DNA of 64,000 nt from Nitrosopumilus cobalaminigenes (GTDB lineage Archaea > Thermoproteota > Nitrososphaeria > Nitrososphaerales > Nitrosopumilaceae). Both the position numbers and the translations under genes were made by a program. The notes under the pieces were generated by a model that was given only the letters and a program-made list of their open reading frames with translations, made no database searches and was not told the DNA's origin. Below are positions 47,643 through 54,983 of this stretch, piece by piece. Location of the stretch: NCBI RefSeq assembly GCF_013407145.1, contig NZ_CP026993.1, positions 890,590 to 954,589 on the forward strand, written 5' to 3'. Every line of letters starts with the position of its first letter. The first letter of the stretch is position 1.

Positions 47643-48236
47643 TCAAACAAGTTGAGATAGTTTTTGAATATGACTGACGTCATTTTTTGCTGCCAAGTCT
47701 AATGCCTCTTGCATCTCATTTTTGTATGCTTCAACATTTTTTTCATCGTTTTTAATAATTCTACATTCTTGAAGTACAGGTAATTCTTTGAAATTCTTGT
47801 ATTGATCATATGTCAGAATGCAAGTATATGATTTTGGATCATCTTTGAAGACATATTGAATTTTAAACGGCATTAAATTATGAGACTCCTCAAATATTGA
47901 CTCAACTAAGATATTTACGTCGACTGGTTTGAAAACAATTTTTGTAGGCTCTAATGATTCAATTTGATCATTCATAGACATTGGAGAGCCGCCAGTAACT
48001 ATAATGATAATACTATTGGGATCTATTTCTCTGATTTTTTTTAGTGCATATACTCCATCATATTCAGGCATCATCAAATCTAGCAATACTATATCAGGAT
48101 GTAATTGATTAAACAGTTCAACTCCTTCTAATCCATTGTATCCTTTTCCAACAACATCAATTCCATACATTTCTAAAAGTTCAGACATTGAAAAAACAAT
48201 GTCTTTGTTATCATCAACTACAATTACAGATGTCAA
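47643..48236 (-). CDS. Response regulator with unusual output region
   Basis: 197 residues. N-terminal receiver domain (about 1-115): VIVVDDNKDIVFSMSELLEM (acidic pair), DIVLLDLMMPEYDGVYALKK (phospho-acceptor Asp about 54) and KIVFKPVDVNILVESIFEES (conserved Lys). The C-terminal 80 residues (KIQYVFKDDPKSYTCILTYD) do not match a DNA-binding domain; archaeal regulators often lack one. It is probably part of a two-component signal path; no kinase is adjacent. Confidence 0.87.
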   Translation of the reverse strand: MTSVIVVDDNKDIVFSMSELLEMYGIDVVGKGYNGLEGVELFNQLHPDIVLLDLMMPEYDGVYALKKIREIDPNSIIIIVTGGSPMSMNDQIESLEPTKIVFKPVDVNILVESIFEESHNLMPFKIQYVFKDDPKSYTCILTYDQYKNFKELPVLQECRIIKNDEKNVEAYKNEMQEALDLAAKNDVSHIQKLSQLV

Positions 48237-48564
48237 ATTGATCCCATGCCCTTCCTAATTTCGATCAATTATGAAATTAAATGGTGTCTGTTTAGAAAAT
48301 AAATAACACATGAATAATATCTATTTGCGTACAAATATTTAAAATAACATATTCATACTTTGTATGAAAATATGAAACAAGTGTTTACACTCAATTTGCA
48401 ACAATTTGGAAAATACATACAGGATTTAGACAGTAATTTTCCAAACATTTATGACTAAATTACTTTTAATGGAAACCAATTGGTTTGCACGCCAAGATAC
48501 TTTTTCAGAGTTTCGGCTCTGTTGAGTATCCCTAGGGAGAGAACACTGTTTTCTCCCTAGGACA
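48237..48564. other. 328-bp gene-free stretch with a chain of inverted repeats
   Basis: Between the response regulator (starts 48236) and the end of argS (48565). Beyond a promoter-like A/T part (48240-48345), it holds six inverted repeats in sequence at 48348-48561. No open frame of interest. See the next entry. Confidence 0.6.
48348..48561 (+). ncRNA. Candidate structured RNA / multi-palindrome locus
   Basis: In order: CATAT-TCATAC-ttt-GTATGA-aa-ATATG (48348-48374); AGTGT-tt-ACACT (48380-48391); TTTGGAAAAT with ATTTTCCAAA (10 bp, loop about 21 nt, near 48405-48445); AAACCAATTGGTTT palindrome (48473-48486); GATACT...CAGAG-tttcgg-CTCTG...AGTATC (48496-48530); CCTAGGGAGA with TCTCCCTAGG (48531-48561). 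The last two hairpins are directly adjacent, as in compact RNAs. Strand unknown; it could also be a DNA site such as an operator array. Confidence 0.5.
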
Positions 48565-50448
48565 TTACATTCTTTCTGGTGCTTTGATCCCTAAAAGATC
48601 TAATGCCTTTTCTAAAACAATTTTAAAAGAATTCACCAAACAAATACGAGAATTTTCTAATTCAACATTACCTAAATCCAACACCTTAGATTTTTCATAA
48701 AAGGAATTGAATGCAACTGCTAAATCATGACAATATCTTGCAATAACTTTAGGAGACAAGTTGTTTGTAGCATCTCGTACTTGCAAATTAAAAAGACCCA
48801 CAGTTTTAATTAACTCTAATTCAGATTTTTCTTTCAATAAAGTAAAATCAACATCAATAGTTGGAGTTCTACCAGATTTCTCCAATATTCTTGAGGCCCT
48901 TGCATGAGTATATTGAATATATGGAGCAGTGTCACCTTCCAAACTAAGTGATTTTGTTAAATCAAACGTGATGATTTTATCTAAATCTTGTTTAATCATT
49001 TCATATCTCAAAGTACCAACAGAAACAGAATGAGCAATTTTTTCAATTTCAGAGTCATCCATTTCAGGATGTCGTTTTTTTGTTTCGACACGAGTTTTTT
49101 CTTTTAAAAGATCATAAACAGAATCAGCATTAACATACAATCCTTTACGTCCAGACATTTGAGCTTGTTTTCCATCAGTTTCCAAACCAAGAGTTTTTGC
49201 AGTTTCAGAACTCAAAGTTACAGATTCATACCCAAGGTGATTGTATGCATCAGGAACGGATTTGAATTTCCCCATTAAAGTTGTGATTATTTTTTGTAAT
49301 CTAGCTTGTCTAGAATCAATAACAGTGACAACTTTTTCTCCCGTGAAATTCTTAGAAACAGGAGTTGTTTTATCCAAAGTTGTTTGCCACAAAATACGAG
49401 AATTTGGTTGCTCACAGTATTTTTCATAATTGAATGGATCCTCAAGCAATCCTAGTTTCCAAGCAGCATATGGAATATCTTTTGCAATATAGGTTGCAGT
49501 ACCATTACTACGAACAATCACTTTGTCTTCTTCTTTACCATCACCACGAATTACCCAACAGCCAGCATTCTTTCCTTCATTTTCAAATTCGACAAGTTTC
49601 ATTGCTTGTAATTTTTCAAAAATATTATTCCATAAACCAGAGCGGATTATTTGAGATTCAAAATTCAGACAATCGTAAGTAACTCCTAAATTCCAACATG
49701 TTTCAAGTTGGCCTGCCAATACTCTTCGAGTGATTTTATCAGCAAATTTTGCAGTTTCAGAATCACCATCTTCAAGTTCTTTAAGAACATTTTTTCTTAT
49801 CTCTTCAAGACTAGAATCAGTCTCATATTTTTCAGTAGTTTTAACATAAACATCATCTCCACAATAATGATCAAATTTCTTTCCATTTGGAGGCTCTTGA
49901 TCATATCCAAAATGTTTGAATCCAACTATAATGTCAGCAACTTGTAATCCAGAATCATCGATATAGTTCAACACATTTACTTTGAACTTTGCTTTTTCTA
50001 AAATTCTAGATACCGTATCTCCAATTATGATATTTCTGATATGCCCTATGTGTAATGCCTTGTTTGGATTAACACTAGTGTGTTCAACTACAATTGTAGA
50101 GTCGTTTCCAATATCAACATCACCACATGTTTCAAGATAAGATTCAGACAGAATCAGTTGACTAAGCTTATCCCAATTTGCGAAAAAGTTGAGATACCCA
50201 GATGGATGTGCTTCAGATTTCAAAACTAGTGTATTAGTGCAATTTTCATATTTTGTAGATAACATTTCTGCTATCTCTTTAGGACTTTTTTTGAGCTGTT
50301 TGGCAAGCAAGAAGGAAATATTTGAGCTGACATCACCAAAACCAGGTTTTGCAGGTTCAACAGAGAAATTTATTTCAGAAATAGAAAGTTCAGATAAGAT
50401 CTTGTTAAGATTATTTTCAATTTCATCAAGTATTGATTTGAATGTCAT
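48565..50448 (-). CDS. argS: Arginyl-tRNA synthetase
   Basis: 627 residues, class I synthetase charging tRNA-Arg. The signature HIGH appears as NKALHIGHIRNIIIGDTVSR; the second signature KMSKS appears as QMSGRKGLYVNADSV. The N-terminal Add1-type domain (EIENNLNKILSELSISEINF) and the C-terminal DALR helical domain (APYIQYTHARASRILEKSG) are present. Its 3' end lies 3 bp before the inverted-repeat chain. The phosphoglycolate phosphatase gene is immediately upstream. Confidence 0.95.
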   Translation of the reverse strand: MTFKSILDEIENNLNKILSELSISEINFSVEPAKPGFGDVSSNISFLLAKQLKKSPKEIAEMLSTKYENCTNTLVLKSEAHPSGYLNFFANWDKLSQLILSESYLETCGDVDIGNDSTIVVEHTSVNPNKALHIGHIRNIIIGDTVSRILEKAKFKVNVLNYIDDSGLQVADIIVGFKHFGYDQEPPNGKKFDHYCGDDVYVKTTEKYETDSSLEEIRKNVLKELEDGDSETAKFADKITRRVLAGQLETCWNLGVTYDCLNFESQIIRSGLWNNIFEKLQAMKLVEFENEGKNAGCWVIRGDGKEEDKVIVRSNGTATYIAKDIPYAAWKLGLLEDPFNYEKYCEQPNSRILWQTTLDKTTPVSKNFTGEKVVTVIDSRQARLQKIITTLMGKFKSVPDAYNHLGYESVTLSSETAKTLGLETDGKQAQMSGRKGLYVNADSVYDLLKEKTRVETKKRHPEMDDSEIEKIAHSVSVGTLRYEMIKQDLDKIITFDLTKSLSLEGDTAPYIQYTHARASRILEKSGRTPTIDVDFTLLKEKSELELIKTVGLFNLQVRDATNNLSPKVIARYCHDLAVAFNSFYEKSKVLDLGNVELENSRICLVNSFKIVLEKALDLLGIKAPERM

Positions 50449-52616: not shown

Positions 52617-53021
52617 ATGAAAATGCCGAACTCATTAATGGCAGCTAAACGAAAAGCCGCTCCAAAGAGAAAAGCAGCTCCAAAGAGAAAAGCAGCAGCA
52701 AAACGCAAAGCAGCTCCAAAGAGAAAAGCAGCTCCAAAGAGAAAGGCAGCTAAAAGAAAAACCGCAGCTAAAAAAGCAGCTCCAAAGAGAAAAGCAGCAG
52801 CAAAACGCAAAGCAGCTCCAAAGAGAAAGGCAGCAAAAAGAAAAACTGCAGCTAAAAAAGCAGCTCCAAAGAGAAAAGCAGCTCCAAAGAGAAAGGCAGC
52901 AACTAAACGCAAAGCCGCTCCAAAGAGAAAGGCAGCTCCAAAGAGAAAGGCAGCTCCAAAGAGAAAGGCAGCAACTAAACGCAAAGCCGCTCCAAAGAGA
53001 AAGGCAGCAAAAAGACGATAA
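52617..53021 (+). CDS. Lys/Ala-rich repetitive DNA-binding-type protein (134 aa)
   Basis: After MKMPNSLMAA the protein is made almost only of units such as KRKAAP, KRKAAA and KRKAAK, about 20 copies. This resembles histone H1 tails and bacterial Hc1-like proteins, which neutralise DNA phosphates. It is probably chromatin-associated. No folded domain. A start at MAAKRK (52638) is possible. Encoded by short, nearly identical DNA units, so repeat number may vary between strains. Confidence 0.75.
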   Translation: MKMPNSLMAAKRKAAPKRKAAPKRKAAAKRKAAPKRKAAPKRKAAKRKTAAKKAAPKRKAAAKRKAAPKRKAAKRKTAAKKAAPKRKAAPKRKAATKRKAAPKRKAAPKRKAAPKRKAATKRKAAPKRKAAKRR

Positions 53022-53327: not shown

Positions 53328-54983
53328 TCAGTAAAGATAGCTCATTAATTTAATTTGTTCTTCAGTAGTGATAATGTCTTTGTTAGTTAAAATTTCTAAC
53401 AAATCTTTGAAGATTGCTTTTTGTTCAGAAGACATTCCACCTGATGGACCTTTTTCTCCGGGAGGACCTGGCGGACCTCTTGGACCTGCAGGACCTACTG
53501 GACCTTGTCCTCCTACTGGACCTTGTTCGCCTATAGAACCTATTGGACCTGTTGGACCTCGTTCACCTTGTGGTCCTTGAATTCCTTGTGGACCTTGCGG
53601 ACCTTTTTCTCCAGAAGGACCAGTGGTTCCACGTTCACCTTGAGAACCTTGTGGACCTTGCGGACCTTTTTCTCCGGGAGCACCTATTGGACCTGTTTGT
53701 CCCTTTTCTCCAATTGGACCTACAGAACCTTTTTCTCCTTTTTCACCTTGTGGACCTGGAACACCAGTTAATCCTTTAGAACCAGCAGGACCTTGCGGAC
53801 CTTGCGGACCTTTTTCTCCAATTGGACCTTCAGTACCTTTGTTTCCTTTTTCTCCAATTGGACCAGGTGGACCTATCGGACCTTTGTCACCAGCTGGTCC
53901 GTTTGGACCAGTTAATCCTTTATCACCATGTGGACCAGGTGGACCTATCGGACCTTTGTCACCAGCTGGTCCGTTTGGACCTTTGTCACCAATTGGACCA
54001 GGACCACCTTGAATTCCTTTTTCTCCTTGAACCCCAGATAATCCGGTTGGACCTTTTTCTCCAGGAGGTCCAGACGGACCAGTTAATCCTTTATCGCCAG
54101 AAACACCTTGTGGACCTTTGTCACCTTTTTCTCCAGGGACACCTCTTAACCCAGCTCCACCTTTATCACCAACAGGACCTGTTGGACCTTTTTCTCCTTT
54201 GTCACCAAGAGGACCTTTTAATCCAGATAATCCTTTATCACCAATGGGGCCAGTAGGACCTTTTTCTCCTTTGTCACCAGGAGGACCAGTAATTCCTTTA
54301 TCGCCTTTATCGCCTTTATCGCCTGTAATTCCTTTATCACCAGTTAATCCTCTATCTCCAGAAATTCCTTTATCACCTTGAGGACCTTTGTCACCAGTAG
54401 CTCCTTTGTCACCAGCTGGTCCCTTTGGACCTTCAGGGCCTTTAATTCCGACAGGACCTTGTTGACCAGGAGGACCTATCGGACCTTTGTCACCAGCTGG
54501 TCCGGCTGGACCAGTAGGACCTTTGTCACCAGGAGCTCCGGCTGGACCAGGAGAGCTAGCAACAGATGTTTTTTGAGAACGTTTAGGTTTTGGAACATCT
54601 TTTGTTTGAGAAACAGATTCAGTTTTTGTTTCAGTTTTAACTTCAGATTGTGATGCAGTTCTTGCTAATGGAACATCAAACACAGTATGTAATGATGAAA
54701 AGAGATCAGTTACAACAATCCAAACTTTGTCAAGATTTGCAATAGTTGCAGGAAGAGGATTTGCAGGAGAACCTATGGTCTCTGAAAACATGCCATCTTT
54801 AACTCTAAGATGGAAATTACCTCTCCATAAAGAAGAAAATTGTTTTGTTCTAATATCATCATCAGTGGGTTTACTGTCAGTAATTGCAATTTGAGCTTCA
54901 TATACACCAGATTGTTTGAAAGGTGCCTGTCCTTGAATCTCTAATCGTGGCTGAGATGACACAACCGTTTGTGTATATTTCAA
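53328..54983 (-). CDS. Collagen-like protein with about 120 Gly-X-Y triplets
   Basis: 551 residues in three parts: an N-terminal beta-like domain (about 1-110, [20 protein letters not shown]); a polar linker (about 111-144); a collagen stretch (about 146-515) of Gly-X-Y repeats rich in Pro, Asp, Glu and Lys ([20 protein letters not shown] style, with no long interruption); and a C-terminal helical cap ([20 protein letters not shown]). The cap or N-domain could set trimer register. No signal peptide or membrane anchor is seen, so its location is unclear. Confidence 0.85.

Follow-up and report, generated by a model that had tools for sequence, protein, structure and literature searches.

The row of hairpins beside argS in Nitrosopumilus cobalaminigenes is proposed here to contain a conserved small RNA gene of ammonia-oxidizing archaea that was previously undescribed. 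Our comparisons further suggest that this gene is put to a second and quite distinct use: the DNA of its first hairpin, SL1, is, as far as sequence can tell, an attachment site of integrative elements that have a dedicated tyrosine-recombinase subfamily. Taken as a whole, the data are very probably best explained by a small noncoding RNA gene of Nitrosopumilaceae with an attachment site in SL1, at which promoters and RNA bodies are swapped. The window, meaning the whole stretch of 64,000 nucleotides that was analyzed, carries these hairpins in the dyad-bearing tract between argS and a response regulator gene, with the following features.

47643 to 48236, minus strand: response regulator (Response_reg and NitrOD1 domains by Pfam), the host-side flank of the empty site
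48448 to 48455, plus strand: TATA-like box TTTATGAC, placed 32 nt 5′ of SL1, a putative promoter
48478 to 48577, plus strand: candidate small RNA gene of about 90 to 100 nt with predicted ends, identified by fold (z −6.74), covariation, and strand preference
48480 to 48495, plus strand: SL1, TTGGTTTGCACGCCAA, the 5′ hairpin of the candidate RNA and the putative attachment core (attB) of integrative elements
48496 to 48530, plus strand: SL2, a two-level hairpin, 6 of 14 pairs changed on both sides
48531 to 48561, plus strand: SL3, the CCTAGGGAGA hairpin, 5 of 12 pairs changed on both sides
48562 to 48577, plus strand: ACATT tail plus U-rich 3′ region, a putative terminator, which overlaps the stop codon of the oppositely oriented argS
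48565 to 50448, minus strand: argS open reading frame, the convergent neighbor, whose C-terminus marks the conserved locus

The first-pass annotation had described a dense row of six inverted repeats as one element. The repeats that it named are all present in the sequence, including the TTTGGAAAAT/ATTTTCCAAA dyad at 48405–48414/48436–48445, the two-level dyad GATACT[CAGAG..CTCTG]AGTATC at 48496–48530, and the CCTAGGGAGA..TCTCCCTAGG dyad with arms at 48531–48545/48547–48561. Moreover, the whole tract, folded on both strands, beats 200 of 200 dinucleotide shuffles on each (z −5.13 and −4.73). However, only part of the row behaves as a structured element: positions 48478–48577 folded alone give a z of −6.74, with none of 200 shuffles equally good, whereas 48340–48477 folded alone give −0.96, with 40 of 200 shuffles equally good, and the AT-rich upstream dyads (48348–48477) are no better than shuffled sequence. 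These upstream dyads are chance or operator-like repeats. Of 12 host-flank loci, only that of the window genome (L001) has an intact TTTGGAAAAT dyad, with partial two-sided matches (1–2 mismatches per arm) at L002, L004, L006, and L143, and the dyad AAACCAATTGGTTT, which overlaps SL1, is absent from the other argS-side copies read. The most conserved element of the tract is SL1, which had been overlooked. A separate palindrome upstream of the response regulator, TTCATAC-TTT-GTATGAA at 48352–48368, looks like a transcription-factor operator; a similar palindrome with at most two mismatches is found at five of the 12 host-flank loci (L001, L003, L004, L008, and L013), and one single-mismatch copy lies elsewhere in the genome. 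The NitrOD1 domain (Nitrosopumilus output domain 1) forms the C-terminus of the response regulator. Elsewhere in the window are a Lys/Ala repeat protein with histone-tail-like AAPKRK repeats (52617–53021, plus strand) and a long collagen-like protein of GPxGDKG repeats (53328–54983, minus strand).

In the candidate RNA, SL1, SL2, and SL3 abut without linkers and are followed by the ACAUU tail. The plus-strand order of a TTTATG-like box, TTGGTTTGCACGCCAA, two further hairpins, and ACATT recurs in the argS-side sequences, and the ACATT tail likewise lies 3′ of SL3 in copies away from argS. A model of the argS-side form, R1, matches 48478–48566 with an E-value of 2.8e-19, the window itself being among the 17 rows used to build it. 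The start of a TTTA-type box stands at exactly 32 nt from SL1, on its 5′ side, in a share of the copies of each kind (type A, 14 of 30; type B, 7 of 18; type C, 7 of 15; type E, 6 of 26; short, 7 of 19); at spacings of 28–42 nt the counts rise to 20, 13, 11, 7, and 12, respectively, compared with 8 of 109 in a residual class made up mostly of chance bacterial matches. Thus, the suggestion that the dyads form a stable structured RNA holds for 48478–48577, where it agrees with the covariation, strand asymmetry, promoter-like box, and conservation. A second suggestion, a regulatory leader, finds no support at the window locus, where, as a riboswitch or mRNA leader would require, a directly downstream same-strand open reading frame was looked for and none was found; argS lies on the opposite strand. 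The candidate RNA itself does not contain an ATG. In other genera, some type A copies do sit 5′ of a small open reading frame, and at L037 and L042 (genera g5 and g11) single-hairpin copies lie directly 5′ of a small membrane-protein-like open reading frame; the RNA at copies of this kind could act as a leader.

Compensatory base changes, the hallmark of a structured noncoding RNA gene, were found among the argS-side sequences of relatives, as the first-pass annotation had proposed checking. Specifically, SL2 and SL3 covary in the 17 distinct rows of set A1 (argS-side three-hairpin forms, with short-form or degenerate-core rows moved to other sets or dropped): both partners have changed in 11 of 31 pairs, the paired fraction of cells is 94.6%, and covariation scores 0.318, compared with 0.210 for shuffled and at most 0.133 for slid alignments. 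In set A3 (16 rows, type C bodies), 12 of 33 pairs are changed on both sides, with a score of 0.361 versus 0.198 when shuffled. Set A2 (19 rows of the short form, which does not have SL2) scores 0.295 versus 0.147, and 4 of its 16 pairs are changed on both sides, a count reached by 65 of 500 shuffles. The rows of these alignments are related, and the pair counts therefore are not counts of independent events. Because SL1 is nearly invariant within A1–A3, its covariation support comes from one distant clade of the genus, in which, in all five genomes read, the UUGG/CCAA stem is replaced by CAGG or UAGG paired with CCUG. The same five genomes keep the inner GGTTTGCACGCC of SL1, carry SL2-like and SL3-like arms of different sequence, have GACAT 3′ of SL3, and place the RNA 751–921 bp from the end of argS.

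The strand on which the RNA is encoded can be judged from the pairs that a transcript would tolerate. G-U cells outnumber A-C cells by 81:10, 38:2, and 80:4 in the three sets, although the structures behind these counts were folded on the plus strand, which gives a mild bias toward that strand, and the RNAalifold consensus energy is −30.5 for the plus strand versus −14.9 when the same rows are complemented. Encoding on the plus strand is favored by these comparisons. A minus-strand role, with the hairpins serving only as the argS terminator or 3′ UTR, would fit an argS-linked locus in which SL3 starts 3 nt past the argS stop. We consider this highly improbable: not only do the strand asymmetry and energy favor the plus strand, but SL1 and the box are located at the end remote from argS, the SL1–SL2–SL3 design is also found away from argS, and no U-tract follows SL3 on the minus strand.

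Membership in a known RNA family is also poorly supported. The first reading had recognized no family, and the Rfam scan that it called for agrees, in that no Rfam 15 family reaches its gathering score in the tract, where matches at E-values up to 10 are far below gathering; the only hit in the window is a tRNA elsewhere, and 12 related loci gave no match. The ACA 3′ of SL3 brings guide RNAs to mind, whether H/ACA, C/D, or another known type, but besides the absence of an Rfam match, SL3 is an unbroken stem followed by ACA, whereas an H/ACA RNA has a pseudouridylation pocket in an internal loop above its ACA box. We give the guide-RNA reading hardly any weight.

The spread of the SL1 core and the RNA was followed with several searches. 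Matches to the region were found by blastn in 45 of the 95 genomes of the genus, and R1 under strict filters finds the RNA in 53 of these 95 and in 37 of the 56 good ones. Of 46 genus genomes that are at least 95% complete, 43 contain an exact 11-mer of the core, a count that includes a chance match in GC-rich sequence in G079. The SL1 16-mer with at most one mismatch is present in 110 of 250 family genomes (reversed control, 2 of 250). Within the order, 101 of 275 genomes have an exact 12-mer of it, almost all of them in the same family, and its occurrences outside the family are sparse and chance-like. A second model, R2, matches one of five genus genomes that do not have the exact core (G011) and none of 13 genomes of other genera of the family. 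Copies of SL1 with ATACTGTTTACCGAGTATTGGCC-type bodies (type E: L202–L208, L211, L246, L250–L252, L258, L262, and L272) also occur at scattered places, most of them without a promoter and some adjoining partial tRNA-like fragments; these copies are possibly remnants of attachment sites or cores. An origin as an IS200/IS605-like end or a MITE was considered for them and rejected, as no common second end was found beyond the core of about 38 bp; a few pairs share longer sequence (at most 147 bp), and in the listed genes of 16 type E loci the only integrase match nearby is a weak one, at L202.

The evidence that SL1 also serves as an attachment core comes from occupied sites. Many genomes, MAG assemblies among them, contain same-strand pairs in which host flank, box, core, and a foreign RNA body are separated by kilobases from another arm, core, native body, and argS. 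Core-to-core distances in eight measured pairs are 5.7–20.5 kb, and the exact direct repeats are 12, 18, 16, 20, 21, 6, 21, and 25 bp, that is, 12–25 bp in seven of eight; the pair with the 6-bp repeat comes from G019, where the core is degenerate and three RNA copies form an array. Not all right ends are argS, since those in G118 and G012 terminate in other bodies. In five intervals (G035, G118, G042, G092, and G039), a tyrosine-recombinase-like open reading frame starts about 50 bp from the right core and diverges from it. This gene is broken or shortened in G092, G042, and G039, which, together with G058, G019, and G055, are occupied sites without an intact integrase of this kind.

The assignment of these proteins rests on several comparisons. 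Pfam scores Phage_integrase above cut-off for G118 and G039, whereas the match of G035, to a SAM-like integrase domain, is below cut-off, as is that of the G066 protein; Pfam gives no integrase match for the shortened G042 and G092 proteins and none for G014. PHROGs integrase families match two of four proteins, and R, HxxR, H, and Y, which we take to be the catalytic residues of a tyrosine recombinase, are invariant in the four intact proteins. A search with the G035 protein found matches in 47 of the 95 genus genomes, and the association with the core follows relatedness. Among the 30 loci returned (rows without a locus, including a 61% fragment in G015, were left out), all six with at least 48.9% identity have an exact core 51–55 bp upstream of a divergent start, and none of the 24 with at most 42% identity has a core within 400 bp, even with two mismatches allowed. 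Moreover, the two arrangements upstream of the core are mutually exclusive: in 54 deduplicated core loci, a count that omits rows without argS, integrase, or flank gene, an integrase start lies upstream in 12, the flank genes of the window in 25, and both in none, and 17 argS-side loci have neither in the available stretch. The core is adjoined by argS in 42 of the 54 rows. In the genome of the window, the site is empty, with the flank genes and the regulator upstream and no integrase; its only integrase-like match lies elsewhere (G000:C1:996628, 38% identity). The same response-regulator flank lies upstream of the RNA in relatives. Thus, the features expected of an attachment site, namely direct repeats at the element ends, a dedicated integrase, and an empty site in relatives, are all present.

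These data also bear on the earlier idea that the dyads are a DNA element, which stands in modified form: an integrase attachment site appears to lie inside the RNA gene, and nothing was found that points to a partition or replication-fork site. One might go further and read the entire structure as recombinase-binding dyads without an RNA function, with SL1 as the integrase core between TTGG and CCAA arms. Such a reading is very unlikely, as it does not account for the covariation of SL2 and SL3, the tolerance of G-U on one strand only, in host-side and element-side bodies alike, or the constant spacing of the promoter box.

Several observations concern the elements themselves. At L356 (4205–4365, minus strand), L017, and L029, a degenerate core around ATTGCACGC is preceded by a second arm type, ATAAACCACTAGNTCGTTGATCGTA and variants, and such arms perhaps belong to another family of elements that uses this RNA gene too. 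Contigs C34 and C38 of one MAG, G066 (L010, L061, and L102), share SL1, body, and argS end and differ in their upstream arms, a pattern suggestive of differing occupancy of the site within one population. Cargo open reading frames at L356 (G019) and L355 (G058), named by eye, are permease-, universal-stress-, arsenate-reductase-, and transporter-like, and Pfam identifies a MarR/HVO_A0261-type regulator there. A virus origin was considered and set aside: 12 viral contigs with an exact 16-mer look like chance matches, and one with a related integrase (44% identity) has no core near its start. A plasmid search gave no match.

Collectively, these findings suggest a model in which RNA synthesis driven by the box at 48448 would begin immediately ahead of SL1, placing the 5′ end of the RNA at or just before TTGGTTTGCACG, opposite argS, and the three-hairpin RNA would end in the U-rich stretch against the argS 3′ end. 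Each element would consist of an integrase with a promoter arm, the SL1 core, and its own RNA body, and would thus bring a second RNA gene. By eye, roughly every second integrase-adjacent copy has a box at −32 in its integrase-side arm; since this arm carries a box, the circular element, if it forms, would read integrase and promoter arm, core, and RNA body. Recombination at SL1 would then join the host promoter to the element body at one end and the element promoter to the host body beside argS at the other. On insertion, the element would take the host promoter and the host RNA would fall under the integrase-side promoter of the element. The arrangement in occupied sites leaves both RNA genes whole, and both would presumably be expressed. 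That the elements use a complete copy of the host small-RNA gene as attP, that insertions swap promoters and bodies, and that the RNA may control or exclude elements together form a proposal to which we assign about an even chance.

The direction of descent can be argued the other way, with the RNA native to mobile elements and an old insertion having left the argS copy behind as a domesticated scar, since the RNA bodies within elements follow the same design and multicopy arrays exist (the three copies in G019). Yet copies linked to argS occur throughout the genus, in g5 and g13 as well, and also in the distant clade, and the distant-clade genomes G003, G004, G013, G017, and G060 have no match to this integrase, which makes a scar unlikely. 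The SL1 inner stem and loop are invariant (GGU-UUGCAC-GCC). Because the loop is invariant and no conserved complementary partner was found, our guess is a protein-bound regulatory RNA; we think that SL1 would be bound by a protein rather than act as an antisense seed. The seed was tried as a candidate and rejected: an exact 11-mer search of 46 genomes for the complement of the SL1 core, GCGTGCAAACC, gave the opposite strand of the core itself, plus the chance match in G079.

Known systems offer partial parallels. Archaeal trans-acting small RNAs, such as sRNA154 of Methanosarcina, are short stand-alone hairpin RNAs, which the present candidate resembles by description only; unlike them, its SL1 has no conserved complementary site. 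Archaeal and bacterial elements that integrate into tRNA genes keep the tRNA gene whole, as the RNA gene appears to be kept here. According to the available parts of a survey of thaumarchaeal integration, 68 sites comprise 39 in tRNA genes, 15 intergenic, and 14 in protein genes, with direct repeats of median 17 bp (PMC6563490, Krupovic et al. 2019). The tRNA-gene sites described there share with the present case a tyrosine recombinase and short direct repeats; in contrast, the present target is not a tRNA gene, the core is a 5′ hairpin rather than a 3′ end, and the element would supply a whole second RNA gene and swap promoters (PMC6563490). Neither “argS” nor “non-coding” occurs in the main text of the survey, and the parts of it available name no noncoding RNA gene class among the sites; a site within an RNA gene, as proposed here, would belong with its intergenic ones (PMC6563490). 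Tan1 of marine Euryarchaeota is, in the available portion of its report, likewise a marine archaeal noncoding RNA that was called unknown when found, but it is 229 nt long, belongs to another phylum, and was detected by RNA-seq (PMC5069720). In the open-access literature, no description of the present RNA was found by title or abstract start, and little turned up there on small RNAs of ammonia-oxidizing archaea.

The candidate thus adds a conserved RNA at a fixed, named place, downstream of argS, where existing RNA-seq data can test it, in organisms that, as ammonia-oxidizing archaea, are among the most abundant cells of the ocean. A hidden RNA gene of this kind is a possible explanation for some integration sites classed as intergenic. 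Furthermore, the arrangement would be a natural case of two RNA genes exchanging promoters by site-specific recombination.
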